Shown here: piece by piece, positions 33,186 to 53,499 of the stretch
How positions within the stretch are numbered: the stretch's first letter is position 1
Layout of the letters: the number at the start of each line of letters is the position of its first letter
Source of the DNA: Bacillota bacterium
GTDB lineage: Bacteria > Bacillota > Clostridia > Oscillospirales > Feifaniaceae
Reading direction: 5' to 3'
Length of the DNA: 64,000 bases
Assembly: GCA_030705925.1 (NCBI GenBank)
Contig: JAUZPM010000001.1
Location: 62,001 to 126,000 of the forward strand
Made by a program: the position numbers and the translations under genes
The notes under the pieces: generated by a model
Database searches by the model: none
Seen by the model: only the letters and a program-made list of their open reading frames with translations
Told to the model about the DNA's origin: nothing

Positions 33186-36100
33186 TTAAGAAGCATGCTT
33201 AGTAAAATAATTGTACAGCATTTGCGCTGTTTCTGCTCTTGTAGCGGTACCTGTCGGGTTTATTTTTCCTTCAGTTCCATTTATATAGCCGTTTGCCGCA
33301 AGAAGCAGAATGTCGTCTTTGGCGTAATCAGCTATACTGTCAGAATCACTGAACGTTACCTTAGATATGTCCGCTTTTTCGTCTAACAGATTGAACGCTC
33401 TTAGTGTCCTTGCGAACAGAACGAACATATCCTGTCTTGTTACATTAGTCTTAGGATTAAATGCTCCATCAGACCCAGTTGCAATACCTAAGTCTTTAGC
33501 TGCTGCAACCGCGCCTGCGTAATATGCATTTGGATCAACATCGTTGAACGTTCCGGTGCCAGACTTGTCACCGGCAAAAGACCTCATCAGCATAAGCGTA
33601 AAGTCTCCGCGATTTACTGTCGCATCAGGCTTGAATGTTCCATCCTCATAGCCCTTAATGATACCCTTATCCGCAATATATTTTATAGCTTCACTTGCCC
33701 AGTGATTTGAAGTATCGGAGAAATCAGGTGTAGAAGCATTGCCTTCGGTAGGCGCAGTCGTTCCGCTATCTCCTGTAGTACCTCCGGATGTATCTGTGCC
33801 GCCTGAAGACCCACTTGATCCATCCGCACCCCCCGATGTGCCTCCGCTGGCACCCGAGCTGCCGTTATCAGTATCAATATTTAAGTCGCCTGACCCAACT
33901 GAAAATGTGTACGTTGCAACCGTTTTATCAGAATCATTAAGAACTTCAACAACTGCAGTTGCTCCGGTTTTATTAAGGTTTAGCGTCGGGAACGTATTTC
34001 CTGAGCCTGCGTCTATAAATCCGCCGCTGCAGACCTTAACTCCGTTTATTTTTAAGTTTAATGTTGGACATTTGGTTTCAGGAATGCATGTTACACTTTT
34101 AACGCCCTCAGGAACCGAAACGCGATAGCTTGTATTCTTATCACTTAAATTCACATTTGTTTCTCCGCCGGCGTATACAAGTTTAACCGAACTCAGTGAA
34201 TAATCGTTGCTGTAATTCGGAACCTGACCCTCGACGACAACTCCCGGTGTCGGAACAGCCCGATTGCTTAGTTTGATACTTGTATCTATTCCTGTTGAAT
34301 TATAAGTATATGTAATACCCTTATTTTCAACAACATCCAAGTTAAGGCTCTCGTCAACATTATACTTTATGCAGGTTATAGGCGTTGGACTATCTGTATC
34401 ATCATTAAGGTTTACAGACAATATTCTTGATCCTGACTGATCCAGTGGAGACTTAACAAACTGGTAAATGGTATCGAAATTGGTTCCGTAGTATTTGTTG
34501 AAATCCGCTACAGTAAGCGAGTTATTCGCCCCGGCTGTAATCCCGTCTTTAATCCATAGAACCATTGCCTGACGAGGCCCGATCATTAAATCTTCACTTA
34601 TTGAGTACTTATCTAAATACTTTGCCGTATTATATGCTGCAGTCTGACCCGCTTTTACGAAGGTGGAGATTGCAAGCCCCTTTAGATTTCGAGCAACATT
34701 ATCATTATTGTATACTTCGATATAATTGAATGGGCGGGAATATACGACACCGCCTTTCACGTAATCCGAACTGTCAGCTACAATCTCCGTTATATAAATT
34801 GGCGAAGGCGTGATATATTTGACATCTCTGATCAGTTTTCCATTCACCACACCGCTTAGCAGTACAAAAATTCGTCTGCTGTCAAGGCTTCGCGGCATAT
34901 TAACTCCAACGGTCGCTGTTTCGCCTGCTCCAAGTGAGGATAGGCTGCGAACTGCAAGGGGCTGCAAACCGTTAAGCCCATTTATTATATCGCTGCTGAG
35001 TGTAAAGCCATCAACTGTTCCCAAATAGTATGATAAAGTTAAATTTGTCGCATTATCATCCGAAGTATTTTTGACTATGGTTTTAACCGCGTCAGGGTTA
35101 GCTGTATCGCTTGACAATCCAAGATCGAGCGAATCAATGTTGATCCCACGTTCTTTTTCGACCCAGACAGGCGCTGTTATACTTGTAATAGTCGACGCTC
35201 CAACTGTCCTCGTATGCTTAATATAGCAATACTTATAATCCGCTGGAAGCTGATACTGCATATGTATAACTCCGTTTACCGCATCCGCTGCGGTGTAAGT
35301 TTTCTGGAATACCGTTACCTGCGCATCTGTAACTATGCTAACAGTGCCAGCTGGGATATTGTTGATATCTTTGCCGTAAATTTTCAAATCAATATCCAGC
35401 TTATCCGGATCTTTGAGGATACTTCCCATCCATTTTCCGTTAACTTTATACTCCATTATTATATTGTCGTCACCGGCAGCATAGGTTCTGTTTTTCCTGA
35501 ACGCTTCAATTATATTGTCCCGCGTAAGTGCGGGTGCCATAGCAACTCCGGATGACGGATCAGCCGACCCCCAGAACATCTGATGATTATCCTCGTTAAC
35601 GACTGGGGATACATGCCAACCTTTAAACAATGCGCGGTTGTACTCATCATCATTGCTTACATTGGCATTGAATTCTATAAGTGCAAATTTATCATCAGCT
35701 TGTGTTGAATAATATCCAAAGTCATTGAAGTCGCCCCAGTTGTTTCCGTCATAATTGCCGGGATGGTTAAACTGCATGACCGCATTTGGATCTGCAATTC
35801 CGAAATCGTAATACTGACGTGCAGGTATCGAAGGATCAGATTTAAGCCAATCCACATTAAGCATATTAAAGTGACCAAACCAGCCAGTATTCATATAATA
35901 AGTAGTTTCCCATCCGTTGAACACGATAAATCCGCCAGGGCCGTTTTGATTATACTTTTTAGTTCTCTTAAGCTGATTCTTATACACATCAGTGGTAAGC
36001 ATATCATTATGATCCGTAACTGAGAAATAATCGAGCTTGCTATGATATCTAGCCCACTCATATGCCTGTTCCACGGTTCCTGTTCCGTCCGATTCCTGGG

Positions 36101-39100
36101 TATGACTGTGAACTTCTCCACGATAATGATTTAATTTTGAATCGTCTCCGATTGAAAATTCAGTTACCTGAGTTAAAACATTTTTATTTTCAGACAAGTC
36201 TGCCGCTACAAGTTTCAGAGTATGCCGGCCATCCGCAATTGCAACTCCCGGTGTGTAAGCAACGTTAAATCCGCGGTCTTGCTCTAAAATTACTGTATCC
36301 TTAGTCTCATCAATATCATCCATATACAAGTGGATACTTGCCTTGTTTATACCTGAATTATCCTCAATATATGCTTTCACTACAGGGATCTTTGAGTCCT
36401 CGTAAAAGTAGTAGTTTTCAGGCTTAAAACTTCCAACCTGCGGAGGGGCTACATCTTTATACGTTATAGTGAATGGATCACCGCTCTGACTTTTGAGAAC
36501 TGCCTCATGAAGCCCGTCAGTTGCTGCAAAATAGTATTCAAGTTTATTAGTATATTGCAGATAATCATAGCTTACCGTAAATTGGAACAAGTTATCTTTT
36601 CCTGCAACCGGTGTCAGATCACCGGTCTGCCATCCTTCAGTACCATACGTTCTGTAGTAGATAGACTTATGGATTATCTCAGCTTCATCAAATATCTGAA
36701 CAGTAAGTGTTATTTCCTGAGGAGCAGCTCCGTCGCTTACCGGTTTCTGATGAATAATATATGGTGCATACTTATCGTTATAATTTACTGCTTTCTGCCG
36801 CCAATCTATTTTGCCGGGGGTAGCCACAGCACCATGTTCGAGTTTGTGTAAATTAATCGTACCATCTATAGGTGCCCCATAAGTGACAGACAAACCGTTA
36901 AGGGAGTCGCTGTACCCAGCCGAAAGCTCATCATTATAAGTAGCTACACATATATAAGGTCCAACGTTGGGATTACTTTTATAATTCAGCATTACTTTTC
37001 TTACCAGTGTGTTTGGCAGCGGACACCTGTTAGAATCTACTGATGTATCAGCCGGTAGCTCTATAACCTTAGTATTGCTTTCTGATAAGTTGATTCGGCT
37101 GTCTTCACGGAAGGAATCGAGCGTCATCCCTGTTTTACGTGCATCAGAAGTAAATAAATGAACTACAACCACTTCACCCGGGTTAATAATATACTTTCCT
37201 CCGCTGAACCCGTATGAATCCATCATCATATCAAAATTAACAAAACGATAATCATTTGGTGCTGTTTGCGGATATGGCTGGAAGTTGATCTTATAATTCA
37301 TCAGGTCAAGTTCTTTATTGCTTGTGTTATAAATCTCTATGAATTCAACATCATCGTTGCCATCCGGGTTCGGCTGCATTTCGGTTATCATAAGCTCCGG
37401 CGGCACCGTCGCAGCCTGAAGTGCAGTCTGATACCAGCTTCCGTCTGAAGATGGTGCCCTCATTTCTGTATTTCCACTGCTTGTTATACAATACTTAACG
37501 TACGAACGCCCCTTAATCACAGAAACAGGAATGCTTGCAGTGTAATACGTTGATGCAACTCCGTTTCCGGCAGAGCTTAACGCAGTATCTTTTGCCATTG
37601 AAAGAGTCCCGGATTTCCCGTCATCAGTAATATACTGCAAAGTCAGATTGTTTGAATCACTGCTATCGATTACGAGAGCCTGAACAGCAAGATCCTGCGA
37701 GTCAATTGTGCTGTTCATTGGGGCATGTATGATTTCCTTAGAAGGCATATGATCATTGACTATTGGTATCAAATTAAAGCTATTTTCATGAATTGCAGTT
37801 CTCTGCTCCGGATATTTTCCGTCAACTTCGGTTCCGTATTTATCGCTTATCTGCAGTTTTGAGGTATAAGCCCCAATCTGTGTTAATAAACCCATATTAT
37901 ATGTGAGTTTATAATCACTTATTGAGCACTTATCCGTAACATCCTCGCCGTTGAACCAAAACTTGATTGAGTTTTTATCTACGCCCGAATAATCACTATA
38001 AGTTATGACTATCTGACCGTTGATTCTTCCTTGAATATTCGCGCCGTTAGCAGGTGTTATTGAATCTATATGCGGTCCCTCTGTATCTGCTATCGTCTGT
38101 TTATATGGGTTATCTATAAACTGCGGGGCAAATGCTGAACTTGCGCCGTCTGTAGCAATTATATAATACTCAATACTTTTACTGTCTTTAATAGCATTAA
38201 TTGATATGCTTACACGATACTCATCAGCATTTTCAGTCTTAGCCATTTGAGCGCAGCTGAATCCACTCATTTGATCAGTTTTATAAAACAAATAAACAAG
38301 TTTAATATCATTATCCGGATCTGTTACCTTCGCGGTAAATGTCGTATCGTCCGGTTGCCTTACTGCTTCGACTTCACCGCAGTCTACAGAGGGCGGCGCA
38401 GTACTCGTAAAGTTTGGCTGCTGGTAATCACGCAGAGTTCCAGGAGTCGGCGAACCCGTATAATCAACCAGTAGTGATTCACAATTATTTACGGGATCGC
38501 AGCCATCGAAATAAACATAATCGATTGTCTGATCAGTTGCGCACTGTACAGCGCCGTCGTTATAAACTGCCTGGCAAAGAACTGCCTTCGTTGATTTATC
38601 AACAATTTGCATTGTCTTTGCATTGATACTGTTCCACAGGTTTGCAGCGCCTTTTATTACAGTTCCGTTACTGTCTGTATAAGGCGCCATAATTCGATTT
38701 GTCTTTGGAATTTCAACGCCGTATCTTGATTTGAACAGTTCGTTCCATGTGCGCTCCATTTCCGCATCTGAATCATAACGGTAACCTAGCTTTTGAGCGC
38801 CCTGCTGATAAATAAAGACTACATAAATCTGATTCTTTTTAAGGACAAACGGCACCACATTGCCCTTATCATCATATTGAGTCTCCGTGACCCACGGGTT
38901 GGTGTATACTTTACTCAAATCAGATATATACGGCAAATAATTAAACTGAACATCGCTAAGCGGGATATCACGGTTCCCTGTATTATACAGTTCAAAATAT
39001 TCCAGGTTTCCTGTTCCGCCCGGTGCAGCATTCACCTCGGTCATAACTAGATCAGGGCGTTTCACCGCTGCTTCCGTAACAGTAATATGTACAGTTGCCT

Positions 39101-42100
39101 CGCCCGCCGCTTTTTCAGTGTTTTTACTGTTTACTTTAACAGTTATCGTATGATCGCCCTTTGTTAGCGGGTGGCTAGCAAATGAGTAGGTAAGCGTTTT
39201 ATCTGTAACATTTTCTGAAGGAACTGCAATAGGCGTGCCGCCGTCGACTACTACTTGGGCAGTTGAAGCATCAATCCCGTCACCATCCACAAGGTCAGCT
39301 GTAAGGGTATCTCTGAAATATCCGCTGAAACTTTCGCCCTCAGTGGGTGAGGTAATATTAACAATAGTATGATTTGAACTTTCATTTATCATTCTATGCG
39401 GCATAGCGCTGCTGCCAAGTGTTGCAGTATTTCCGCCGCCATCTATTGCTGTTACATAATAATCGATATAGTCGACGTCAGTAAGTTCCTCTGCGGTAAG
39501 CGAAATATTCTGTTCTGCCAGCTGCGTGTCTGAAGCAACTGAGCCTTTTTGAGCTACATAGTCTATCGATTTTGATTTAAAATCCGTATCCTTAGAAGTC
39601 TTATAATAAATCGTCGAATATCTTAAATCACGGTTATCAAACATATTGATTGAAATCTTTGCCCCGTCAGCAGACTTAAAAGATGAGCCGGTATTATCCG
39701 TTATTTCCGCGGCTGTTTTATCAGATACGTATATAGGCTTTTGATCATAGGTTATTACTCCAAGATTGCTCTGGGAAAGCTTTTCAGAAACCGGCAGATA
39801 ATTTTTTGCGGAATCATACTTGAATTTAACAGATGAGTTAACGGTACTTACATCAGAGCCAAAATATTTCGCGACAGACATAATATCACTGTCGTCATCA
39901 ACATATTTTAAGCGGTTGGCCTCCGATACTGTTGCGGAAGAGTCGAGCATCAAAAGCATAACACGCGTTGTACTGCCCACCCTCTTTAAATAAATATTTT
40001 TAAACTTATTGAATGAAACGCCTCCGTCGGATGCTGATTTTGGCTCCGGCTCTGCGGCAGCAGATGTCTGATCATCTCCGGCATTTAATCCGTATGTATC
40101 TTCCGCTAAGAAAAGTGAATCTTTATTAACAGTTGGATTTTCCGAAATGAAGCTATCAACACCTAGAGCCTTGAAAGCGGCCGCATCGGTAAACTTGCTC
40201 ATAGGATAATACCTTACCCATAAGGTGGCTACTCCATTTGCGGGAAGCCAGTTGCCTCCGCTTGGCTCAGTATTTCCGCTCCATGCAGCCGAATATTTAG
40301 TGATCCCGTTCATTCCGGTATAATATGTATTCGTTAAATTTGCTATATCCCCGTCATAATTTCCGGCTCCAGGCCAGTCTGCTTTTCGTCCCAGCTTATA
40401 ATTATTAAGATTTATCGGATGCCCGCTTGCATTATATATCTCAACCGCCGAGTATGCATCCACGCCTTGAACCTGAGTCGTGTAAACTTTTGCCTCGGTT
40501 ATCATAAGGTCTGGATAATCTCCGTCCTTGGTCGAACTGCCTTCAGTTACACCGATCGTTACAGTCGCCTCGCCCGAGTCCTTACTTTGGTTGGTGCTAT
40601 GAACCTGAAGTTTTATTGTATGTGTGCCGACTCCGAGAGGATTACCCGCGAAGGAATAAGTCAGAGCTGTATTTGATACATTCTGAGCAGGAACTGAAAT
40701 AGGCGTGCCGTTGTCCACTGTAATTGTCGCAGAAGAGGTGTCTATCCCATCCTTATCAGACAAATCTGCTGTAAGGATCCCATTGAATGATCCTGTGAAT
40801 ACCGACATATCCACTGGATAGGTTATAGCAACGTTTGTTTTTGAAACAGCCGTTGCCGCGTTTATTCTGATGGGTGCGCTTGCGCTCCCCACAGCGGCCG
40901 GATTGTTTCCTCCGTCCAATGCAGTTGCATAATATTCGATATAATCGGCTCCTGCAAGATCTTCCGCCGGAATATTCTTTGCAATATCCGCCTTTGTTAT
41001 GTCTGCTGCAATGCTGTTCTTTTTTGTCTCGCGAAGAACTATATCCTCTGAAGCCTCTTTAAAAGCCGTATCTTTTGATGTTCTGTAAAATAGGGATGTA
41101 AGTCTAATATCTTTGTCGTCGGTAACTCCGATCGTTATATCAGCACCGTTATCCGGGTTGTAAGTGCTTGCTGTTACATCAGACATGACAGGAGCATTTG
41201 TATCGTTATATGTCGGTTTTTGCTTATAAGTCATTGTTCCGACTGAGGGTGCAGTTTTGCTTTCAAGTATCATGCTCTGATTTTTGGATAGATCGTAATA
41301 AAATTTTGCAGATGATACGCCTGCAGTGGAAGTGCCGCCGTCGCTTGTCAGATATGTTACATCGCTTCCGAAATATCTAGCATATGATATCATATAAGCG
41401 GCATCATTATCCGTATATTTTGCTGCCGAGCTCTCATCCTCAGCTGTCGCATCGGGTGTTAACAGCATAAGCATAACCCTGGTTGTAGATCCCGGATTAT
41501 CTAGCAAAAACTGACCTCTGTATTGGTTGTCTACCCCGGCTCCAGTTGTTGAACTCGTCAAAGGTTTAGCATCTAATGTATCCCCGGGAAGAAGTCCGTA
41601 ATCGTCTTCACACAAAAAAGTATAATTTGTATTGGCATCTGGATAAATCGCTTTCAAGTCATCTTTATCAAGCGCTTTAAAATCAGTAAAATTTGTTATT
41701 CCAGTCGTATAATAACGCACCCAAAGCGTCGCGACACCGTGTGCCGGCAGCATGCAGTCTCCGCCCGCGTACTCTCCCCAGGCACGTGAATCTGCGGTAA
41801 TATCGTTTATACCTGTATATGAAACGCTTCCAGTAACCGGTGTTACGTAATCATTCACACCGCCAGGCCTTGTGACTGATGTCTGCCAGGTATTTTTACG
41901 CCCCACCTTGTAACCCTTTAAGTTTATGCTGCTATTGGTAGTATTGTACACCTCAATTATGTCATACCCGTCTGCTGAAGTAGTCACACCCTCAGGTTTA
42001 TATGAGGAATTAACAACTTCAGTAATTATGAGTCCTGGATATGAACCGTCTGTTCCCATGACTGATATTGGTGAATCCTTTGAATTAGCATAAGAAGTTC

Positions 42101-42212
42101 CGCCAGTTTGAGTCCCGGAATCGTCATTTGCAGCATAGGCGCCAAGAGGCATCATAGTTGCAACCATTGCTATAACCAGAATAACGGACAGCACGCAATT
42201 TAATCTTTTCAT
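33186..42212 (-). CDS. Giant SLH-anchored surface protein with lamin-tail domains and a PHP-type metal phosphoesterase domain
   Basis: A 3008-residue exported protein; the ATG at 42212 follows GGAAGGGG. A signal peptide (about 1-28, ending AYA) is first. Five lamin-tail-like domains open with related strings near residues 50, 565, 1055, 1605 and 2475 (for example PDLMITEAK, PELMITEMQPNPDGNDDVEFIEIYN). Between them are Ig-like or chitobiase-type beta-modules (DNRDLRYSTIYYKTSKDT and similar). Around residues 2030-2265 is a PHP/CehA-like domain with metal motifs VHSHTQESDG, SVTDHNDM, FNHPGN and NEDNH. A Gly/Ser linker leads to three SLH repeats (about 2835-3005). The gene is last in a glycan-use operon, 58 bp after the ROK kinase gene. 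The SLH end fixes it to the wall; the PHP part may hydrolyse phosphoesters, and the lamin-tail units may bind substrate. Confidence 0.88.
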   Translation of the reverse strand: MKRLNCVLSVILVIAMVATMMPLGAYAANDDSGTQTGGTSYANSKDSPISVMGTDGSYPGLIITEVVNSSYKPEGVTTSADGYDIIEVYNTTNSSINLKGYKVGRKNTWQTSVTRPGGVNDYVTPVTGSVSYTGINDITADSRAWGEYAGGDCMLPAHGVATLWVRYYTTGITNFTDFKALDKDDLKAIYPDANTNYTFLCEDDYGLLPGDTLDAKPLTSSTTGAGVDNQYRGQFLLDNPGSTTRVMLMLLTPDATAEDESSAAKYTDNDAAYMISYARYFGSDVTYLTSDGGTSTAGVSSAKFYYDLSKNQSMILESKTAPSVGTMTYKQKPTYNDTNAPVMSDVTASTYNPDNGADITIGVTDDKDIRLTSLFYRTSKDTAFKEASEDIVLRETKKNSIAADITKADIAKNIPAEDLAGADYIEYYATALDGGNNPAAVGSASAPIRINAATAVSKTNVAITYPVDMSVFTGSFNGILTADLSDKDGIDTSSATITVDNGTPISVPAQNVSNTALTYSFAGNPLGVGTHTIKLQVHSTNQSKDSGEATVTIGVTEGSSTKDGDYPDLMITEAKVYTTQVQGVDAYSAVEIYNASGHPINLNNYKLGRKADWPGAGNYDGDIANLTNTYYTGMNGITKYSAAWSGNTEPSGGNWLPANGVATLWVRYYPMSKFTDAAAFKALGVDSFISENPTVNKDSLFLAEDTYGLNAGDDQTSAAAEPEPKSASDGGVSFNKFKNIYLKRVGSTTRVMLLMLDSSATVSEANRLKYVDDDSDIMSVAKYFGSDVSTVNSSVKFKYDSAKNYLPVSEKLSQSNLGVITYDQKPIYVSDKTAAEITDNTGSSFKSADGAKISINMFDNRDLRYSTIYYKTSKDTDFKSKSIDYVAQKGSVASDTQLAEQNISLTAEELTDVDYIDYYVTAIDGGGNTATLGSSAMPHRMINESSNHTIVNITSPTEGESFSGYFRDTLTADLVDGDGIDASTAQVVVDGGTPIAVPSENVTDKTLTYSFASHPLTKGDHTITVKVNSKNTEKAAGEATVHITVTEAAVKRPDLVMTEVNAAPGGTGNLEYFELYNTGNRDIPLSDVQFNYLPYISDLSKVYTNPWVTETQYDDKGNVVPFVLKKNQIYVVFIYQQGAQKLGYRYDSDAEMERTWNELFKSRYGVEIPKTNRIMAPYTDSNGTVIKGAANLWNSINAKTMQIVDKSTKAVLCQAVYNDGAVQCATDQTIDYVYFDGCDPVNNCESLLVDYTGSPTPGTLRDYQQPNFTSTAPPSVDCGEVEAVRQPDDTTFTAKVTDPDNDIKLVYLFYKTDQMSGFSCAQMAKTENADEYRVSISINAIKDSKSIEYYIIATDGASSAFAPQFIDNPYKQTIADTEGPHIDSITPANGANIQGRINGQIVITYSDYSGVDKNSIKFWFNGEDVTDKCSISDYKLTYNMGLLTQIGAYTSKLQISDKYGTEVDGKYPEQRTAIHENSFNLIPIVNDHMPSKEIIHAPMNSTIDSQDLAVQALVIDSSDSNNLTLQYITDDGKSGTLSMAKDTALSSAGNGVASTYYTASIPVSVIKGRSYVKYCITSSGNTEMRAPSSDGSWYQTALQAATVPPELMITEMQPNPDGNDDVEFIEIYNTSNKELDLMNYKINFQPYPQTAPNDYRFVNFDMMMDSYGFSGGKYIINPGEVVVVHLFTSDARKTGMTLDSFREDSRINLSESNTKVIELPADTSVDSNRCPLPNTLVRKVMLNYKSNPNVGPYICVATYNDELSAGYSDSLNGLSVTYGAPIDGTINLHKLEHGAVATPGKIDWRQKAVNYNDKYAPYIIHQKPVSDGAAPQEITLTVQIFDEAEIIHKSIYYRTYGTEGWQTGDLTPVAGKDNLFQFTVSYDYLQYTNKLEYYFAATDGLHEAVLKSQSGDPFTITYKDVAPPQVGSFKPENYYFYEDSKIPVVKAYIEDNSGINKASIHLYMDDIDETKDTVILEQDRGFNVAYTPGVAIADGRHTLKLVAADLSENKNVLTQVTEFSIGDDSKLNHYRGEVHSHTQESDGTGTVEQAYEWARYHSKLDYFSVTDHNDMLTTDVYKNQLKRTKKYNQNGPGGFIVFNGWETTYYMNTGWFGHFNMLNVDWLKSDPSIPARQYYDFGIADPNAVMQFNHPGNYDGNNWGDFNDFGYYSTQADDKFALIEFNANVSNDDEYNRALFKGWHVSPVVNEDNHQMFWGSADPSSGVAMAPALTRDNIIEAFRKNRTYAAGDDNIIMEYKVNGKWMGSILKDPDKLDIDLKIYGKDINNIPAGTVSIVTDAQVTVFQKTYTAADAVNGVIHMQYQLPADYKYCYIKHTRTVGASTITSITAPVWVEKERGINIDSLDLGLSSDTANPDAVKTIVKNTSDDNATNLTLSYYLGTVDGFTLSSDIINGLNGLQPLAVRSLSSLGAGETATVGVNMPRSLDSRRIFVLLSGVVNGKLIRDVKYITPSPIYITEIVADSSDYVKGGVVYSRPFNYIEVYNNDNVARNLKGLAISTFVKAGQTAAYNTAKYLDKYSISEDLMIGPRQAMVLWIKDGITAGANNSLTVADFNKYYGTNFDTIYQFVKSPLDQSGSRILSVNLNDDTDSPTPITCIKYNVDESLNLDVVENKGITYTYNSTGIDTSIKLSNRAVPTPGVVVEGQVPNYSNDYSLSSVKLVYAGGETNVNLSDKNTSYRVSVPEGVKSVTCIPETKCPTLNLKINGVKVCSGGFIDAGSGNTFPTLNLNKTGATAVVEVLNDSDKTVATYTFSVGSGDLNIDTDNGSSGASGGTSGGADGSSGSSGGTDTSGGTTGDSGTTAPTEGNASTPDFSDTSNHWASEAIKYIADKGIIKGYEDGTFKPDATVNRGDFTLMLMRSFAGDKSGTGTFNDVDPNAYYAGAVAAAKDLGIATGSDGAFNPKTNVTRQDMFVLFARTLRAFNLLDEKADISKVTFSDSDSIADYAKDDILLLAANGYINGTEGKINPTGTATRAETAQMLYNYFTKHAS

Positions 42213-42270: not shown

Positions 42271-43206
42271 TTAACCTGAAAAAATCTCAAACCTGACAAT
42301 ATCATTAACATTAACGCCACTAAGTATAGCTGCCGCACACCCCAATAGGTGAGCCCCTTCAATGTCCGCACTCGAATCAATTTTTTTTAGTGAATTTACG
42401 CCATCAAGTCCAGCGACTAACGCATTTCTAAAAAGGTTAAAGGATTTTGAGATTTGTCCTCCCAAAACAAGACATTCAGTGTCAAACCGTTTTAGGATAG
42501 GACTTATTATTTCACCAAGCACCTGACCGGTCTCTTCAAAAGTTTGCATCGCATTTATATCACCTTTTTGCGCCAATTCAGCGATGTCAACAACATCTAT
42601 ATCTTGAGAATAAGGGGATTTACTTAAATACCTTGAAATCATTCCGCGCCTCGATACATACTCTTCCGCCGTTTTTCCCTTAAACGGCAAATTATAAATA
42701 CTGACCGCAGGGCCTCCGTCACAATTCTGCAAAATATTTTTATTTCTCATCACTGCAAAGCCAAGTCCGGTTCCAAGCATTACGCCTGCTGAATTTCCAT
42801 ATTCTTTAGCAGCACCTTTCCATGACTCTCCGATCAGAAAAGCTGAGGAATCATGCAAAAACTTTATGTAGACGTTGTCAAATATTTCTTGGATCCAAGG
42901 TTTTAGGGGTATCCCATAAATAGATTTGAATTTGTGCTGCATCCTGCTTTCCATATTTATGAAATCAAAAGGTCCGGGAGTGTCTATTCCTATCCCCAAC
43001 AACTCAAATCTGTTCTGAGCAAAAATGTATTGCTTTTTCAGTATGTTTTGCAGACATCTTTTGATTCCGTCAGCCGGTCCAGAAGAATCAACAGGCTCTT
43101 GTATCTTACTGTCTTTGATAATTTCCCCATCTGTAGTAACAAGCGCTGATTTGAAAAATGTGCCGCCAACATCAACTGCGAGTACTGCCTGCTCTCTCTC
43201 AGCCAT
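42271..43206 (-). CDS. ROK-family sugar kinase or regulator-like protein
   Basis: A 311-residue protein with the ATPase fold of the ROK family: phosphate-1 motif AVDVGGTFFKSALV (about 9-22), GIGIDTPGPFD (72-82), the catalytic-type Asp in FLHDSSAFLIGE, and GVMLGTGLGFAV. There is no N-terminal winged helix, so it is of the kinase type and not a repressor. The zinc-binding cysteine cluster common in ROK kinases (CxCGxxGC) is missing: this stretch reads NCDGGPAVSIYNLPF. It lies 11 bp after the isomerase-like gene, in an operon for sugar breakdown, and probably phosphorylates a released monosaccharide. Confidence 0.85.
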   Translation of the reverse strand: MAEREQAVLAVDVGGTFFKSALVTTDGEIIKDSKIQEPVDSSGPADGIKRCLQNILKKQYIFAQNRFELLGIGIDTPGPFDFINMESRMQHKFKSIYGIPLKPWIQEIFDNVYIKFLHDSSAFLIGESWKGAAKEYGNSAGVMLGTGLGFAVMRNKNILQNCDGGPAVSIYNLPFKGKTAEEYVSRRGMISRYLSKSPYSQDIDVVDIAELAQKGDINAMQTFEETGQVLGEIISPILKRFDTECLVLGGQISKSFNLFRNALVAGLDGVNSLKKIDSSADIEGAHLLGCAAAILSGVNVNDIVRFEIFSG

Positions 43207-43217
43207 ACCTTTACCCC

Positions 43218-45056
43218 TTAATGCTTGAGCATTGTTTTATGAAGAATCGCCGTAGTACCCGGTTTAAGATTGATTATTTCATATTCACCCATATCCGCAG
43301 GAACAACAACAATATCAAGGTAATTCTGTACGAAACAATATTCTGGATGTGCCTTAGAGCGAACAAGCACTTTTTCACCATCAACCAGTGCAAGAACATG
43401 AAAATAGCCGTCAGTATTATCTGTCGCTTTATCAACAAGCTTTACGTTGCGAAGTGTAAAATACAGCAGGTCATGTTCACCCACTATATACTCTTCAAAG
43501 CCTTCACCTTTACGAGCAAGACGTTTTTCCTGTACAACATTGGATTTTATCCAGTCTGTATTGCGATCACGCACAAGAACTTTTTCACCGTGATACGTAT
43601 GAATAGGTCTCGGATTTCCATCAAGATCTTTTCTAAGATAATCATACATCTTATATGTATATGATCCCACCGTAAGGCTTCCGATCTCAAGTATCAGCTG
43701 GTTTCGCCCTGACGCATGAATCGTCCCGGCCGGAATCATGACCTGAACGCCCGGCTTAGACTCAACAGCATTTACATATTTTTCATAATCGACGGGAGTT
43801 CCTTCCTTTTCAGACCTTTTAGTATCAGCTATAAACTGTTCAACGTCAACTCCGTTATTAAAGCCGAGGAAAGTTCTTGCTCCCTGACCTGCTTCAACTA
43901 TATAGTAGCTTTCATCCTGACGTCCAAGCTCGCCATTGTTTTCAACAACATATTTTTCGCCTGGATGGCACTGAATAGACATGTTTCCGTTTGAATGCAT
44001 GGTATCATCATAATTAAACCTAACCGGGAAGTAATTGCCGAATTTTGAAACGCTCTCTTTTCCCATCAGTTTTTCACTCTCGCATTGTACGAGCGCATAG
44101 AATGGGAATTCCAATAACATTCCTTCAACGTCGTAAACGATGCTGACCTCCATTGGTATCATGTCAAATACCCATGCGCAGTTTTTCATCTCTTTAGGCA
44201 GGTTTCTGAGCTTGTGAACTGAATATCCGCCCCAAACCCCCTCAAGATAAACAGGTCTGCATCTGAACGGATATTTTAGCCCCTTTTCAAATACCTGCTT
44301 CAGTGTAGCATATGGTAATAATTTCATATTAAGTGGGTCAACGCCTATTACATAATCATCTATCTCACCGTTTTTAAGCAGCTGAAGTCTTAAATCAAGT
44401 GCAAGTTCAAAGTCAACGTAATAACAGCGTCTTGCCATAGCCTTGAATTCAAGCGCATTTTTAAGCCCAATATTTAGGTAATTGCCTCGTTTTACGTTTA
44501 ATATAGCGTGAAGCGGCGTTATATCAACGTAAATTTTACGGTCGTAAAGAACCCTCAGTTTTTCGCAGAGCGCGCCGCTTCCGCTAATGATCAAAACACC
44601 TTTGCCTGTTTTTTTGAAATTAATTATCTTATCTATGCATTCTTTCAGCTTAATTTCATCAAACAACTTTTCGTAACCACCTATAAAACGGTGGCCATAA
44701 AGTAAAACAGGATCTTTTTCTCTGTCTGTAGGCAGATTGTTTTTTTCAAGATATGCACTCAGCACATCTTCATCCTGAAATAAGTCTGAAGTTTGAATAA
44801 TATTGAACGGTATTTTCTTTAATGAAAGCTGCTGGCCGGTCAGAGTTGTAAGAACATCTACCGGCGCAGTCGCATACCCGTCAAAACCCATGACACAATT
44901 TCTAGCGCTGTTTATCTTCTCTAGCGCAGCATTTGCTAAATTCTCAGCGGTTGCTGCACTCCCATTAACAATACTTTTTACATCGATACCACTGCTGTCT
45001 ATCTTATTGACCGCATTTGGATCATCGTATGGATAGGGGTTAAACATAAAACTCAT
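43218..45056 (-). CDS. Mannose-6-phosphate-isomerase-like (type I cupin) protein with N-terminal extension
   Basis: A 612-residue protein; the ATG at 45056 has AAGGAGAGG upstream. The C-terminal half (about 270-610) is a type I phosphomannose-isomerase-like cupin. The metal ligands can be followed as Gln and His in SIQCHPGEK, Glu in GRQDESYYI and His in IPAGTIHASG. RPVYLEGVWGG and WVFDMIPMEVS also fit. The N-terminal 260 residues are an added domain with a P-loop-like GSGALCEKL region and FIGGYEKLFDEI; similar long forms occur in Firmicutes but I cannot assign the extension, which resembles a nucleotide kinase without a full Walker motif. Likely role: isomerising a phosphorylated sugar made by the neighbouring kinase. 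Confidence 0.8.
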   Translation of the reverse strand: MSFMFNPYPYDDPNAVNKIDSSGIDVKSIVNGSAATAENLANAALEKINSARNCVMGFDGYATAPVDVLTTLTGQQLSLKKIPFNIIQTSDLFQDEDVLSAYLEKNNLPTDREKDPVLLYGHRFIGGYEKLFDEIKLKECIDKIINFKKTGKGVLIISGSGALCEKLRVLYDRKIYVDITPLHAILNVKRGNYLNIGLKNALEFKAMARRCYYVDFELALDLRLQLLKNGEIDDYVIGVDPLNMKLLPYATLKQVFEKGLKYPFRCRPVYLEGVWGGYSVHKLRNLPKEMKNCAWVFDMIPMEVSIVYDVEGMLLEFPFYALVQCESEKLMGKESVSKFGNYFPVRFNYDDTMHSNGNMSIQCHPGEKYVVENNGELGRQDESYYIVEAGQGARTFLGFNNGVDVEQFIADTKRSEKEGTPVDYEKYVNAVESKPGVQVMIPAGTIHASGRNQLILEIGSLTVGSYTYKMYDYLRKDLDGNPRPIHTYHGEKVLVRDRNTDWIKSNVVQEKRLARKGEGFEEYIVGEHDLLYFTLRNVKLVDKATDNTDGYFHVLALVDGEKVLVRSKAHPEYCFVQNYLDIVVVPADMGEYEIINLKPGTTAILHKTMLKH

Positions 45057-45107
45057 AATTGCACCTCTCCTTGACTGCCGCAATAATAAAACAGTCAAAC
45101 TTTCTTA

Positions 45108-46535
45108 TTATATTTGATAAAAATCAAAATCCATTAATTCGGCGAACGCCTTAAGCTCTTCCATATAATTGCCGTCGACTATCCCGTAATGCTGAGTAAC
45201 GCCTATATTTATCAGGCGATCAAACAGTTCCTGCGGTTCAAGCGTCTTGTGTCTGAACTCTGCATGTGAGTAGCTCGCAAGATAATGGTCAGTCGGCAAT
45301 GCCTCAACTAAAGTACAGACAAGCTTCATACGCCCGTTATTTTCCGACATGTGCACCATCGTCTTTTCGCCTGCGGGAAAGACATACCACGCAAACGGTG
45401 CTCCTGCATATTTATAATTTGTTTTTGCAAAGCGGGTATCCCGAGCTATTATGGTATTTTCCGGGCATCCCGTGTAATCATTAGGACCCGCATGGCCAGC
45501 CGCAAAAGTATTCCTTTGTTTGATTATGTAAAACGGCTCTATAAAGTTTGCACGTTTTCCAGAAAGCAGAGTAAGTATATATACCGCCAGCCCTGCGCCT
45601 ATATCGCCTTCAGGCACAACAGTAAGCTTTGACTGCTTGTTTGTAGGTAGAAAACCAGGACGTAAACCGACCTTTTGGAAGAGAACAGGATCGATATCAT
45701 TTAAAACAGTTAAATCTACATCATATTTAGCCGAGAGATTCTCAAGCGCCATTGAAGCCCTAACAGAGGCCTCAAATTTGATCATATCCACATCTTTATA
45801 AAATTTAAACTGCTCTTTAATTTTACCTGCGGTCACCTTCAAATCCTCATTAGAAACTGCATCTATCTCGTCAACAAGCTGTGCCACTGATAAAAAGCGG
45901 ATCTCTGGTCCAATTTTATAAAATATATTGTAAGGATCGACATAGGTCGACCACATCACTTCGTTATAGGACGAAAGTAGCGCCATCGTCGAACTGCGAA
46001 GCATCGAACGTACTCTGGCAGCACTGGAAAACTTTTTGACTTTATCTACAACTTGATTCATATCCCCTATAAACGTCTCACGCATGGGGCGATCAAAGCG
46101 TTTAAAATCCCCTGACCCCTCCTGCACGCCGACAAGACTGCCTGCCGAAAGAAAATCCACGAACTGGTCTTCATCGTTTGTATCTGTTATATCAACGCTC
46201 TCACGGATAAAGCTTGCAAACAGAATCGGAACCGGAGGCATGTCTCTTAAAAATCTAATCCATGCAAAATCTTCTGACCATGACAGATATGCCGCCACAA
46301 CGCAGTCCACTTTTTCACTGAAGAAGGTTTCGATAGCTTTCTTGACATCATCTCGCTCATAGACTATCCCTGGGAATACGATTTCTCCCGCAACACTCAG
46401 ATTTTTTACTATGGCGTCGACTTCAATCTGCTTTCTTTCCCCATATGTGCCATTTTCAGTACCTTCTCCGAGTGTTTTAAAACGTGGAGAACCAATAAGC
46501 AAAAGCCCGATTTTAGCGGCCCTTTCAATGTTCAT
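45108..46535 (-). CDS. L-arabinose/L-fucose isomerase-like protein
   Basis: A 475-residue protein of the arabinose/fucose isomerase superfamily, which interconverts aldose and ketose sugars with a Mn2+ ion. The second ATG (46535) was chosen since the GGAG lies only two bases before the first. The N-terminal part (about 5-170) has the expected alpha/beta folds with VVAAYLSWSEDFAWI. The catalytic region shows VVPEGDIGAGLAVYILTLLSG (about 308-328) with a conserved Glu, then a His in AAGHAGPNDY and another in PTDHYLASYSHAEF. The family is broad, with many members of unknown substrate, so the sugar is not named. Confidence 0.8.
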   Translation of the reverse strand: MNIERAAKIGLLLIGSPRFKTLGEGTENGTYGERKQIEVDAIVKNLSVAGEIVFPGIVYERDDVKKAIETFFSEKVDCVVAAYLSWSEDFAWIRFLRDMPPVPILFASFIRESVDITDTNDEDQFVDFLSAGSLVGVQEGSGDFKRFDRPMRETFIGDMNQVVDKVKKFSSAARVRSMLRSSTMALLSSYNEVMWSTYVDPYNIFYKIGPEIRFLSVAQLVDEIDAVSNEDLKVTAGKIKEQFKFYKDVDMIKFEASVRASMALENLSAKYDVDLTVLNDIDPVLFQKVGLRPGFLPTNKQSKLTVVPEGDIGAGLAVYILTLLSGKRANFIEPFYIIKQRNTFAAGHAGPNDYTGCPENTIIARDTRFAKTNYKYAGAPFAWYVFPAGEKTMVHMSENNGRMKLVCTLVEALPTDHYLASYSHAEFRHKTLEPQELFDRLINIGVTQHYGIVDGNYMEELKAFAELMDFDFYQI

Positions 46536-46559
46536 TTCCATCTCTCCAAACTAAAATTA

Positions 46560-48482
46560 TTATAATGCTGTAAAATCCCCGTTATATAAAATCACAAAAG
46601 CTCCGGTATCGATCTTTGGAAGCGAAATCCCAAAACCCTTTTCATCTTTTTCAATTACAAGATCTTTTTGCTCGTATGGAGTGATCCATCTCGCCTTGCT
46701 TACGCCTCCACCGATTCCGTCCGAAATATTAAGTTTACCGTCTGAAACAGCTCTCTCAAATCCGTCATGGTTTGTAAGTGATATCAAATAATGCCTGCCG
46801 AATTTATTTGAGCCTTCAATCAAACCCGTGCTCACTGAATTATCGGGGCATCTTACCGCCGCAGCCGGAATATAATCGAGCACACTAATTAGCTCTGCCA
46901 TTGAATAAGAACAACCCTGCGGAATTTTTTCGCTATTACAATTTTCGTGGATGATATAGCCGTCACCTTTTATTGTATAATTAAAAACTGTATGTTTTTC
47001 GGCGAATGCCGCGATTTCTTCTGTTTCTGTTTCCGATAGCCCCTTAACAGAAGGCACAAAAAGCATTTCTATCCCAAGCGGATTGTCTGAGAGATCACAG
47101 CTTCTTACTATATCCGGTGTGATACCGCAATCTTTAAGTGCGGTATAGATACGCCGCAGAAATTCGATATTGCGATCTTTTCCGTGATATACAGACCTCA
47201 CATCACCGTTGTCAATCGCGTCATAATAGGCGTTAGCATGTTTCGAATACAATATCCCTATTCGGCTTCTTACTTTTTTGCTTTCCGCTATATATGGAGA
47301 CAGGCTGTCGATTAATTTTGTCATTCTGACAGCACCATCATACTTTTCAGTTTTATCTCCGTTATTGAAAACCATCCCAAACCCATTTGGTTCCGGTGCG
47401 TCGTCAAACGGAAAGTCCGCCCTCCACTGGTAATACATTATTCCTTTAAACGCAGAACCTATTGCGTTGTATGTTTCACGTTCCCACTCAGAAAGAGTGC
47501 ATGCTGTACGGGCGTTATATTCAATAAGCCAGGCATTTTTGCCGTATGTGCTTGCTGCACACTCTGCCCCATCAAGCACTAAAGAAGCAAGGTAGTAATC
47601 CGGGCCGTATGATTTGACATAATGCGTAATGCCCACAATATCCATCCGCTCTGCGATATCGAAATAATCCTGACCTCTAAGTGCATTTCCTGATGTAAAC
47701 GGACTTGCCATATGACATGTAAGCGTTTCGGCTTTTTGGTAACCCTTTTTTGCAATATCACTTAAGTTATTCAGAAAGCCACTCATGCGTTCCGTATTGA
47801 AAAGGCGGAAGTTCACCCACTCCTGTGGATCTTCATCGTAATATGGTCTTCTTCTCGGAGGCTCGTAATCTTTCGCCTCTTCTTCAGACTTTAACCCCTT
47901 TTCAATCAGCCATTTGCGGTAAGACTCTATTGTTTTCGGATTGTAATCATAAAATTCCTTAGTCGGGTAAGCTGCCTCATTATAAATCTGAAAACTGACC
48001 ATATCGTCGAACTTTCCAAAATGCTCCGCTGAAACGAGAGTTGCCCTTTCATTATCCTCAAGGATACCGGGATGATTTAAACAGTTTCTAACAAACCATG
48101 ACCAATAAAATGGCATCTCTTCACCGCTTTGATTTTGCATCGTTGCATTCTCATAGCCATGCAGGTTAATACTATAGCCCTGAAGACGCACCATAGTTGC
48201 AAGATCGTCTCTGCTTGCCTCTTTAAGCATCTCATCAATAAATGGAAAGCTTACTGAAACCTCATTGTTATCATCAAGCTCAATTTTTCCAAGTGCAGCC
48301 ATCCTTACAATATTAAAGCCAGCGTCTTTCATATCTTTAAGATCTTTTACCATTTCACCCATTCTGTCGCCGGTCTCAAGAACAGGCACCTTTTGAGGAT
48401 GGTAAGATGGGTAGTAGGACTGCCCTAATGCGATATGTGCAACTCCATCCTTATATAAAATCCCGTTTTTTAATGTATACAC
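46560..48482 (-). CDS. GH42-like beta-galactosidase-type glycoside hydrolase
   Basis: A 640-residue cytoplasmic enzyme without signal peptide. A TIM-barrel domain (about 15-395) carries the clan-A pair of catalytic acids: FQIYNEAAYP gives Asn168-Glu169 (acid/base) and WLIEYNART gives Glu321 (nucleophile). A trimerisation-like alpha/beta domain (about 400-540; RIGILYSKHAN, LFVPSVKGLSETETEEIAAF) and a small beta-domain follow, as in GH42. The N-terminus is less like classical GH42 (LKNGILYKDGVAHIALGQSYYPSYHP), so a neighbouring family is possible. It would cut oligosaccharides brought in by the ABC transporter genes upstream in the operon. Confidence 0.78.
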   Translation of the reverse strand: MYTLKNGILYKDGVAHIALGQSYYPSYHPQKVPVLETGDRMGEMVKDLKDMKDAGFNIVRMAALGKIELDDNNEVSVSFPFIDEMLKEASRDDLATMVRLQGYSINLHGYENATMQNQSGEEMPFYWSWFVRNCLNHPGILEDNERATLVSAEHFGKFDDMVSFQIYNEAAYPTKEFYDYNPKTIESYRKWLIEKGLKSEEEAKDYEPPRRRPYYDEDPQEWVNFRLFNTERMSGFLNNLSDIAKKGYQKAETLTCHMASPFTSGNALRGQDYFDIAERMDIVGITHYVKSYGPDYYLASLVLDGAECAASTYGKNAWLIEYNARTACTLSEWERETYNAIGSAFKGIMYYQWRADFPFDDAPEPNGFGMVFNNGDKTEKYDGAVRMTKLIDSLSPYIAESKKVRSRIGILYSKHANAYYDAIDNGDVRSVYHGKDRNIEFLRRIYTALKDCGITPDIVRSCDLSDNPLGIEMLFVPSVKGLSETETEEIAAFAEKHTVFNYTIKGDGYIIHENCNSEKIPQGCSYSMAELISVLDYIPAAAVRCPDNSVSTGLIEGSNKFGRHYLISLTNHDGFERAVSDGKLNISDGIGGGVSKARWITPYEQKDLVIEKDEKGFGISLPKIDTGAFVILYNGDFTAL

Positions 48483-48495
48483 CTTAGATACTCCT

Positions 48496-50568
48496 TTATC
48501 TTGCGCGGCGGATTAATCCGCCAGTTTTTGCGGGTTCAATTTTTCCTGTTACATAGCCATAAAGGTGCCTATTAGTTTTCATAAAGTAGGCTGTAAGCTC
48601 ATCATATGGCCGGTTGCAAATATCAATTACCCCATGCTGCATACATTCACCGTCAAATCTGCCAAGTAGGGGCTGATCGTTCATTTCGAAGTAGTGAATT
48701 CCGACGCAGTTTTTATGTGCCATTGCATTCTGCATAAAATATGCGCATGCACGTCCACGTTCCTCCTGAGTCGGGGATGAAAGCAGACCGTGTGCAAACA
48801 GCCCTTTATCTCCACCCCCAATATGCCATTCCCCAATAATCATCGGCATATCACAGACCATTGAACACTCGTCCAGCGGTTCAGTCGGTGACGGATTATA
48901 TCGATTAAATGAAAATACATCGTATTCTTCACAGCCGCCCATCTCTTTACTGCTTCCCGACGAATACCGCATACCTAGATTCATATGGTTGGGCGCCGCT
49001 TTTCTAAGTTCATCGCCAGTGATAGATGCATATTTTTTAAGGAGTATAATATGAAGCGAGTTCAAATCAGCCTCAGCACCGCTGCTTAACATATTTAAGC
49101 GTTCAACAGGAGTGTACAGATCTTCAAAACATGTGAAATTAGAATTCCATGAAATATTGAGTGAAGCAATAGAATCATATTTTTTATGAAGCAGTTCAAT
49201 CAATGCCGTTTTGCTGTCAAGCCTTTCAGGACTTGCAAAAGTGCGTTCAGCCAGATTGACTTTTTGAAATTTCCACTCTGGTTCATTTGTTACAAAGTAA
49301 CCTATAAAATATGGATTACCTGCAAGTGGAATAAGCTGCTCTGCAAATATCCTAGACTTTTCTGCATATTCATCCGAAAAAACGTCTGGAAAATCTCTGA
49401 ATACCCTTTTTTCTGTAAGCGGGAAGTTTTTAAGCGTCCAGACAAAAGGTATCTTAACAGCATTGAGAAAATCCAAAACACGCTCATCTATATAATTATC
49501 GACGCCGACACCGATCGTATTGAAACCCCAGCGTTTTAACCTTGAACCGTTAATTTTTACCCAGGCATCCCACCAACCGTCTTTTCCAAATGCACGTATC
49601 ATATTTGCCCGTGCAAAATTGAACATATAGCGCTCCCTGCCAGCATCAATTCCGTTTCTTTTTGCAAACTCGGGTATTTTATCAGCAGTCGTCCAAGCGT
49701 CACTAAATTCAGGATCATCCTTCTTGGGAAGCCATGAAAAGAGGTTCTCCATCTTATCCACAAAACCATGAACTCCCATTCGGCTGCCATAGCACATGCC
49801 GTTGCTGAAAAATGCGTAACCATCTGGATCGACTAACCACCAGCGTTTCCCGTCAAAATGAGTGTGGAAATAACCGGTTTTATCAAATCTAATATCTTTG
49901 AACCCGCCGAATCTGCTCCATCCTTCAGGATAGCTGTTATCTTTTTCTGCACTTGCATATTCATTTTTAAGATAAGCTATTAATTCATCTACCCCGTGCG
50001 TCTTGCCGCCCCATTCTTTTTCAGTCCATTGCCCAAGCTCATCTACAAGGGGTTTTCCTATCACCGTCATATCAGGAATGGTATCTGAGAGATATATTTC
50101 GAATATATGGATGCTTTTAAATACATGGCTGTAACCGGGGTGAATATATATTTCCATGGCGCTCATCGCTTTAATGCTTGTTGGAATACAGGATATATGA
50201 CCTTTAAGCATCCCGGGAAGTGTAGGAAGAAAATATCGTTTTGATTTAAGTTCATCCAGTTTAATCGCCATTTTTACTCGTCTAGTTGGAATCATGCGGC
50301 AGTTGATGCAGTTCTTTTCATTCGGATCGGTTTTTTCCGCTTTAAAGAAAAGAAGGTCAATATTAGCCATCGCATCCATATCTGCAAGCATATCTATGAT
50401 CAAATATTTATCATCATCCCATATTTCCCCGCCGAGTTTTCCGGCATCTCCTTCAAGACGTAAGCGGATATATCCATCCTTATCCGGTTTTAAAGAAAGC
50501 CCGGATGCTTTAGAGATTGTCAAACCCTGAACAATTCTAAACTTTTCCAAATCAATGTTTTGCTTCAT
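48496..50568 (-). CDS. Clan-A glycoside hydrolase, GH50/agarase-like
   Basis: A 690-residue protein without signal peptide; GGGAGC precedes the ATG at 50568. An N-terminal beta-domain (about 1-165) is followed by a TIM barrel. The entry WWLVDPDGYAFFSNGMCYG (243-261) resembles GH50 and related agarase-like families. FVTNEPEW places Asn428-Glu429 as acid/base and IIGEWHIGGGD gives Glu580 as nucleophile. GH50 enzymes are mainly known as beta-agarases, but in a gut or soil clostridium other beta-galactoside-type glycans are more likely. Being adjacent to the GH42-like gene (13 bp away) suggests the two act on the same imported oligosaccharide. Confidence 0.7.
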   Translation of the reverse strand: MKQNIDLEKFRIVQGLTISKASGLSLKPDKDGYIRLRLEGDAGKLGGEIWDDDKYLIIDMLADMDAMANIDLLFFKAEKTDPNEKNCINCRMIPTRRVKMAIKLDELKSKRYFLPTLPGMLKGHISCIPTSIKAMSAMEIYIHPGYSHVFKSIHIFEIYLSDTIPDMTVIGKPLVDELGQWTEKEWGGKTHGVDELIAYLKNEYASAEKDNSYPEGWSRFGGFKDIRFDKTGYFHTHFDGKRWWLVDPDGYAFFSNGMCYGSRMGVHGFVDKMENLFSWLPKKDDPEFSDAWTTADKIPEFAKRNGIDAGRERYMFNFARANMIRAFGKDGWWDAWVKINGSRLKRWGFNTIGVGVDNYIDERVLDFLNAVKIPFVWTLKNFPLTEKRVFRDFPDVFSDEYAEKSRIFAEQLIPLAGNPYFIGYFVTNEPEWKFQKVNLAERTFASPERLDSKTALIELLHKKYDSIASLNISWNSNFTCFEDLYTPVERLNMLSSGAEADLNSLHIILLKKYASITGDELRKAAPNHMNLGMRYSSGSSKEMGGCEEYDVFSFNRYNPSPTEPLDECSMVCDMPMIIGEWHIGGGDKGLFAHGLLSSPTQEERGRACAYFMQNAMAHKNCVGIHYFEMNDQPLLGRFDGECMQHGVIDICNRPYDELTAYFMKTNRHLYGYVTGKIEPAKTGGLIRRAR

Positions 50569-50585
50569 TATCTGCTCCCAAACTA

Positions 50586-51458
50586 TCAACCTATCATTTT
50601 TATCATGTATCTTCCTGTAAGCTCTAGGAAACTCGCAAGGCCATCATGCAATGAATCCGGTACACGGCTCGCCCCGACCTCAAAATTAAAATTTCCGCTG
50701 TATCCGATTTCTTTTAAAACAGGAAGGATATCCGCCCATTTTATGTTACTTCCGCTTGTAAACGGCGGTGCGTGATCATCATGCTTTCCCCGGTTATCAT
50801 GAACATGTAACGCTTTTAATCTTTTGCCGGCAGCCTTTAGACAATCCGTCTGATTATCTCCTATAAGATTCGCATGTCCAAAGTCCCAGCATATACCTGC
50901 AATTTCACCGATAGTATCAACAAGATCGCAAACATCCTCAACATTTGAACAATATCTGTGCGTAGAATTTAGATATGCCGGTATAAACAGGTTCTCTATT
51001 GCTATTCCCACCCCAAGCGCTGCTGCCTGGTTTAAATATGGGTCTAGGAACTCCAAGGTCCTTCTTTTTGATTCCTTTATGCTCAGTACTGCATCAGGCG
51101 CATTCCCTGCGTGAAAAACCGCCCACTTGACTCCAAGTATAGCTGATGCAGTAATCGATCTTGACAGCATTTCCCCTCGGAACTCCATTTCTTCGCATCC
51201 GGGAGTAGCAAAATTATAAAACGGCAGATGTGACTGCTCGATAACAATTCCGCATTCATTTGCGGTTTGACTCACTTTTTCAATGGTGTTTTTCCAGTTA
51301 TCCATGCGTAAATATGCTTCGTCATGGATGGTAGGGCAGAAATTGAAATCTACTGCATCAAATCCTGCTTTTGCAATCCTCTTGATTGCTTCCACCGGCG
51401 TATACCGATCTCTATCCGGACAAGCCCCAAAGAGCAGGGTGTTAACTGAAAGTTTCAA
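50586..51458 (-). CDS. Sugar phosphate isomerase/epimerase (AP-endonuclease-2-type TIM barrel)
   Basis: A 290-residue TIM-barrel protein. The start is taken as the TTG at 51458, where AGGATAGGGG lies upstream and the protein begins MKLSVNTLLFG, the usual first strand; a longer frame from 51533 overlaps the preceding gene without a ribosome site. Metal-type residues are at IEQSHLPF, VFHAGN, AIENLF, CWDFGHAN (Asp and His), LHVHDNRG and FNFEVG (Glu). The family changes the position of a carbonyl or hydroxyl on sugars. It follows the permease gene by 8 bp. Confidence 0.85.
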   Translation of the reverse strand: MKLSVNTLLFGACPDRDRYTPVEAIKRIAKAGFDAVDFNFCPTIHDEAYLRMDNWKNTIEKVSQTANECGIVIEQSHLPFYNFATPGCEEMEFRGEMLSRSITASAILGVKWAVFHAGNAPDAVLSIKESKRRTLEFLDPYLNQAAALGVGIAIENLFIPAYLNSTHRYCSNVEDVCDLVDTIGEIAGICWDFGHANLIGDNQTDCLKAAGKRLKALHVHDNRGKHDDHAPPFTSGSNIKWADILPVLKEIGYSGNFNFEVGASRVPDSLHDGLASFLELTGRYMIKMIG

Positions 51459-51466
51459 AATTGCCC

Positions 51467-52420: not shown

Positions 52421-52433
52421 AATATCGCCTCCC

Positions 52434-53360: not shown

Positions 53361-53499
53361 AAAACTCCATTCCGCCGCTTTGCGCCGGCACAAGATGAAT
53401 TTTATAGTTGCTCTTATCACGCAAAGCATAAAATGATAAAAGCTGGTCTTTCTTCGAAGGCCGCTATACGGCGGACTGTTAAGGCACTGTCAGCAAGGT

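Follow-up and report, generated by a model that had tools for sequence, protein, structure and literature searches.

A putative PHP-type surface hydrolase with five lamin-tail domains closes a sugar-import operon in a Clostridia genome

Introduction

The catalytic partners listed for bacterial lamin-tail domains (LTDs) are metallo-beta-lactamase, synaptojanin and calcineurin folds, and the PHP fold is not among them (PMC6085458). One described protein that joins an LTD to Ig-like domains, ShfP, is a phosphoesterase that releases glycerol (PMC11488536). Here we describe a 3008-residue protein encoded in a 64,000-nucleotide stretch of a Bacillota genome of the class Clostridia (GCA_030705925.1, contig JAUZPM010000001.1, positions 62,001 to 126,000; hereafter the window), in which the sole recognised catalytic unit is, as judged from sequence, a PHP-type metal-dependent hydrolase domain of the CehA/McbA family. 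New here are the presence of five such PHP-bearing giant proteins and 38 LTD matches in one genome, and a second giant that ends an importer operon similar to that of the window.

A PHP-type domain within a large exported scaffold

The gene (33186..42212, minus strand) runs from an ATG at 42212 to a stop at 33186 and is preceded by a ribosome-binding site rated good (ggaagggg). An earlier note on this DNA had described a 3008-residue protein with five LTDs, a PHP-type domain and three SLH repeats, a description confirmed by the open reading frame (ORF), Pfam and NCBIfam. From the N terminus, the protein carries a signal, four LTDs with Ig-like stretches, the PHP domain, a fifth LTD, a cadherin-like domain and the three SLH repeats. 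A chance origin of this layout is excluded by the E-values given below and by four paralogues elsewhere in the genome that also have the CehA domain.

The catalytic domain, including a C-terminal beta-sandwich (35157..36128, minus strand), was delimited by NCBIfam, alignment and a structural model. Residues 2029-2352 match NF038032 (CehA/McbA) over model positions 2-315 of 315 and score 84.1 bits, where the curated cut-off is 80. Both strings on which a CehA/PHP-like domain had been proposed, VHSHTQESDG and SVTDHNDM, occur exactly in the sequence. The PHP motifs HxH...D, DH, E, H and DxH are found at H2035-x-H2037 and D2042, H2068, E2102, H2150 and D2208-x-H2210, and the candidate metal ligands further comprise H2114, E2180 and H2200. 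These residues are identical across the five paralogues of this genome and are invariant, or missing from one or two at most, across 34 aligned homologous domains, a set that contains a single clearly degenerate copy (L114). Because the candidate ligands are kept in nearly all of the aligned domains, the loss of metal-binding residues that the earlier note had named as contrary evidence is not seen.

An AlphaFold2 model of the PHP domain alone, built from a ten-sequence alignment, has a mean pLDDT of 73 and a pTM of 0.72. In a Foldseek search with this model, PolC, which contains a PHP domain, came 8th (E 6e-4, probability 0.99) and 12th (E 1e-3), below matches to the beta-sandwich. Among the nearest solved relatives in a profile search is 3e38, a predicted PHP phosphoesterase of marginal sequence similarity (E 0.005). 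When the Ig domain before it was modelled together with the PHP domain, the Foldseek matches were mainly Ig and TIM-barrel glycosidases of low TM-score, and this model was set aside.

All of the scaffold modules lie on the minus strand, with LTD coordinates given as genome coordinates minus 62000. The five LTD stretches together yield a Pfam family E-value of 3e-38 (130.9 bits against a gathering score of 34.3) and are located at 41715..42041 (LTD1; PF00932, E 9e-7), 40215..40514 (LTD2), 38814..39059 (LTD3), 37065..37406 (LTD4, the strongest match, 53.3 bits) and 34494..34808 (LTD5, past the PHP domain). LTD1 and LTD2 share 40% identity over 285 aligned positions and look like a duplication, while the remaining pairs have diverged. 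The proposal that each LTD opens with the string MITE...EIYN holds exactly for LTD2 and LTD4; the other three carry the variants IITE..EVYN, VMTE..ELYN and YITE..EVYN. One of several Ig-like stretches is matched by Big_7 (39138..39362, E 5e-6), and a cadherin-like beta-sandwich (33897..34145) falls slightly below the Pfam cut-off. The Pfam scan of the whole protein revealed neither the OB-fold nor the EEP nuclease domain that would place it with ExeM and NucH, and Pfam and NCBIfam gave no Metallophos (calcineurin-like) match such as would indicate a ShfP-type catalytic domain.

Export and anchoring are suggested by both ends of the protein, as had been proposed before. A typical signal peptide of about residues 1-33 (MKRLNCVLSVILVIAMVATMMPLGAYAA...; 42114..42212, minus strand) was read from the sequence, and the three SLH repeats (33216..33743, minus strand; E 8e-32) include a third copy with a TRAE motif. 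CsaB makes the pyruvylated wall polymer that SLH domains bind, and the genome encodes CsaB (269.8 bits against a cut-off of 213.1), in keeping with this proposal. The CsaB-type pyruvyl transferase lies in a single 740-residue ORF with a glycosyltransferase-like N-terminal half (L125, C54:7765-8679; L122:7591-9813).

The giant gene closes a sugar-import operon

The giant is the last gene of a tight ten-gene minus-strand run, in which the gaps range from -67 to +115 bp and the spacer before the giant measures 58 bp. A scan of this spacer found no promoter-like or terminator-like site on the minus strand, so that the separate promoter or terminator named in the earlier note as evidence against an operon is not seen there, and co-transcription with the importer genes is likely from this arrangement. 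The run also contains the co-directional importer and glycosidase genes that had been claimed, namely an oligosaccharide importer with GH50-like and GH42-like glycoside hydrolases.

Read upstream from the giant on the same strand, the nine genes encode a ROK-family sugar kinase (42271..43206; domain and profile searches), a 626-residue mannose-6-phosphate-isomerase-like protein (43218..45098; 1qwr, E 7e-15), a 477-residue protein of unsure identity with a very weak profile match to a sulfoquinovose isomerase model (45108..46541), a GH42-like glycoside hydrolase (46560..48482; domain search), a beta-agarase-like glycoside hydrolase (48496..50589; 5z6p, E 2e-51), an AP_endonuc_2 TIM-barrel protein resembling sugar isomerases and epimerases (50586..51533; domain and profile searches), two ABC sugar-importer permeases (51467..53429; domain search) and a solute-binding protein related to AlgQ1/AlgQ2 and other oligosaccharide-binding proteins (53545..55191). 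The beta-agarase-like enzyme is probably a GH50 member, to judge from the matched structures. An AraC-family regulator is encoded divergently (55427..57604, plus strand).

Paralogues and recurrence of the importer context

The five giants with a CehA domain range from 2405 to 3617 residues, the window protein included. Three of the four others were scanned; they have an LTD and SLH layout like that of the window protein and no OB-fold or nuclease domain. A sequence search found no SLH repeat in the giant on contig C17, in which several LTD copies follow one another at even spacing. The LTD count does not exceed six in any of 58 relatives from the order, and it is zero in the seven relatives from the family. 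Ten large LTD ORFs total about 22,300 residues, near 3% of the genome, and in four scanned ORFs of this kind that lack a PHP domain, some of which are truncated at contig ends, no catalytic domain was found. The LTD giants form a lineage-specific expansion, with examples on contigs C17, C38, C13, C46 and C56 (L032, L033, L035-L038).

The giant on contig C10 closes a second operon, in which genes for an AraC regulator, a solute-binding protein, two permeases, a TIM-barrel protein and NanE precede it. Furthermore, in a metagenome-assembled genome (MAG) labelled Bacteroidota (L042, JAUZOF010000211.1), a giant is followed by the same types of TIM-barrel and solute-binding protein genes. The L042 giant has SLH repeats and is closest to the C38 paralogue of the present genome; its contig may be misbinned. 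With a second giant of this genome and a homologue from a different MAG showing the same association, the link to importer genes is hardly a coincidence. Nor does the link represent one inherited locus, since the PHP domain of L042 clusters with that of C38 and not with the window copy. Importer loci with this permease type number four in the genome (window, C10, C15 and C54). The rough chance that two of five giants lie directly behind one of them is 3e-5 to 5e-5, or 0.003-0.005 when any position within about five genes is counted, in a post hoc estimate that assumes 1800-2200 genes.

Beyond this genome, a giant in G330 is preceded by genes for a solute-binding-like protein, a GH43-like protein (labelled by eye) and a GH3 enzyme. 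We considered a glycan operon as the general home of PHP giants and rejected the idea, as G330 is the only such case among 20 loci from other genomes.

Relatives across Clostridia

Of 391 genomes sampled from the class, 31 have a match at E 1e-20 or better, counting the genome of the window itself, and the named homologues come nearly all from Clostridia MAGs. Scans of 27 family proteins found an LTD in 12, an OB-fold nucleic-acid-binding domain in 12 and SLH repeats in eight. In two relatives, L115 and L116, the PHP domain shares one chain with a Metallophos and 5'-nucleotidase module and with SLH repeats. These proteins (L115:2535-12647, 3370 residues; L116:6462-15032, 2856 residues) also contain choice-of-anchor I and OB-fold domains, with an LTD in L115. 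Seven homologues, most of which come from gut MAGs, have lengths of 771-897 residues and lipoprotein-like N termini. The search of a phage collection returned no match to the giant, and that of plasmids just two partial matches (24-27% identity).

A YibE/F (PF07907) membrane protein gene adjoins the giant in nine of 20 sampled loci, with gaps down to -14 bp. The YibE/F-adjacent giants are of the OB/PHP kind (L101, L102, L103, L107, L109, L110, L112, L105 and L117). No YibE/F gene was found in the window's genome.

The window's genome also encodes a stand-alone CehA lipoprotein, in an apparent operon that includes genes for glycerol-1-phosphate dehydrogenase (E 3e-44) and the glycerol-3-phosphate antiterminator GlpP. 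The same locus (C12; L039:7590-15836, L120:964-4940) also holds an ABC importer and, by eye, a GlpA-like oxidoreductase.

Possible function of the giant

Judging from its domains and neighbours, the giant most likely works at the cell surface and trims a polymer that is esterified, probably with phosphate. It would be exported, and its three SLH repeats would then hold it on the wall via a pyruvylated secondary wall polymer, with the LTD and Ig-like modules reaching outward to hold a polymeric substrate. The PHP domain would cut phospho(di)ester bonds, for example those of a teichoic-acid-like polymer or a phosphorylated glycan, and the operon's own importer and glycoside hydrolases would bring in and catabolise the freed oligosaccharides. 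Since the operon encodes an importer and glycosidases, the polymer can be argued to contain carbohydrate. The domains, the kept ligands, the paralogues and the recurring gene order are observed, but we infer every link in this chain, from secretion and attachment to the wall through co-transcription and phosphoesterase chemistry to the substrate and its coupling to import, and the same applies to the capture and dephosphorylation of a polymer before import that the earlier note had put forward. That the giant cleaves phospho(di)esters in an extracellular carbohydrate polymer and so feeds the importer and glycosidases has, in our estimate, a little less than an even chance of being right.

Known PHP enzymes, such as histidinol phosphatase, PolX, PolC and RNase AM, act on phosphoesters. 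The chemistry nevertheless does not follow from family membership, because CehA and McbA hydrolyse carbamate esters (PMC8292978). A phosphoesterase is favoured over a carbamate or carboxyl esterase because relatives are fused to 5'-nucleotidase and OB-fold domains and because the stand-alone CehA lies in a glycerol-phosphate operon; the phosphoesterase label given earlier draws support from the fusions and this operon, but not from the family's namesake enzymes. Several other observations weigh against the proposed function. The giants and the stand-alone CehA are distant relatives, and the importer operon has only generic kinase and isomerase genes and no phosphoglycan-specific enzyme. Three of the five giants in this genome show no link to a sugar operon, although two of these are at contig ends with their upstream genes out of view, and most giants of other genomes sit outside sugar operons. 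The AlphaFold2 model is of moderate quality, with parts of the active-site region scoring below 60, and its top Foldseek matches are to the C-terminal beta-sandwich, ahead of the PHP core.

In our own ordering, the phosphorylated or teichoic-type glycan is followed by nucleic acid and then, about level, by a carbamoyl or acyl ester and an incidental placement. The PHP domain might serve as a nuclease or as a nucleotide phosphatase, with extracellular DNA or RNA as its target and phosphate or nucleosides as the gain; the LTDs would bind the nucleic acid, a role proposed for them in secreted LTD nucleases such as ExeM and in the Izemoplasmatales DNA-degradation loci. The OB-folds in 12 of the 27 relatives, the two Metallophos and 5'-nucleotidase fusions and the significant fold match to PolC, a polymerase that contains a PHP domain, would fit such a role, as would the secreted nucleases that carry LTDs and OB-folds (PMC6085458, PMC8289736). 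However, neither the window protein nor its three scanned paralogues has a detectable OB-fold or nuclease domain, the importer and enzymes of the operon look suited to oligosaccharides rather than nucleosides, and ExeM lacking its LTD is nearly normal in vivo (PMC6085458). We regard this role as rather improbable.

Less probable again is a carboxyl-ester or carbamate hydrolase that strips acyl or carbamoyl groups from an extracellular glycan for the glycosidases and importer. Membership in NF038032, the glycan-operon location and the precedent of CehA and McbA, carbamate hydrolases of the esterase type in which histidines are essential (PMC8292978), agree with this activity, whereas the domain fusions and the glycerol-phosphate operon cited above indicate phosphoesters. 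Equally doubtful is that the giant is a lineage-specific, adhesin-like surface protein whose position behind the importer operon is incidental. The abundance of LTDs in about ten large ORFs, the lack of a detected catalytic domain in the four scanned ORFs without PHP and the absence of a sugar operon at three of the five PHP giants speak for an adhesin, but the ligands are kept in each paralogue, and both the gene order on C10 and the neighbours in L042 repeat those of the window.

Extended to the whole family, the proposal of phosphoester cleavage at the surface becomes one of an unrecognised, Clostridia-wide group of LTD- or OB-scaffolded PHP phosphoesterases acting on surface polymers, which in one lineage would have reached five copies partly linked to importers for phosphoglycan scavenging and elsewhere would be paired with YibE/F. 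We consider this broader proposal possible, if unlikely.

Discussion

If the giant is indeed a phosphoesterase, the PHP fold would join the LTD partner folds of PMC6085458, and the operon would offer a genetic handle on the use of phosphorylated or wall-type glycans by uncultured Clostridia. The conserved YibE/F pairing of the family provides a functional lead for YibE/F, on which a paper search found nothing; the pairing with OB/PHP giants was likewise absent from the literature searched, and no useful work was found on DUF3604, on PHP in polysaccharide utilisation or on YibE with lamin tails.

The earlier note knew of no described system of this form. This stands for the exact layout in the literature searched, but an LTD/Ig surface phosphoesterase (ShfP; PMC11488536) and an LTD nuclease beside importers in Candidatus Izemoplasmatales (PMC8289736) are already known. 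ExeM/NucH-type LTD nucleases resemble the giant in combining an LTD with a hydrolase in an exported protein (PMC6085458, PMC8289736), and the Izemoplasmatales nuclease also shares the proximity to importer genes (PMC8289736). These proteins differ from it in that OB-folds accompany a nuclease domain, either EEP or of another kind (PMC6085458, PMC8289736), and the Izemoplasmatales transporters are probably for nucleosides or nucleobases, in contrast to the oligosaccharide importer found here (PMC8289736).

With CehA and McbA, the carbaryl hydrolases of NF038032, the giant shares its catalytic family and the conserved PHP histidines, whereas the known members act on carbamate pesticides, and the source read describes no LTD, Ig or SLH scaffold for them (PMC8292978). 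The two-domain PHP protein 3e38 is a relative by sequence profile, with a phosphoesterase activity that is predicted in its name, and the PHP domain of PolC is a relative by both profile and fold, although PolC is an intracellular polymerase. For both, the similarity in sequence is marginal.

The nearest described design is that of ShfP (YvnB) of Bacillus subtilis (PMC11488536). Like the giant, ShfP is a secreted, metal-dependent surface hydrolase in which an LTD is followed by Ig-like domains, and some of its relatives have SLH and cadherin domains. Unlike the giant, it has one LTD rather than five and a calcineurin-like catalytic domain in place of PHP, and its role is in sporulation signalling via glycerol release, with no mention of a sugar-import operon in the parts of the paper that were read. 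Thus, the window protein is a PHP-type variant of the known LTD/Ig surface phosphoesterases such as ShfP and ExeM, similar in design to ShfP and built around a different catalytic fold.

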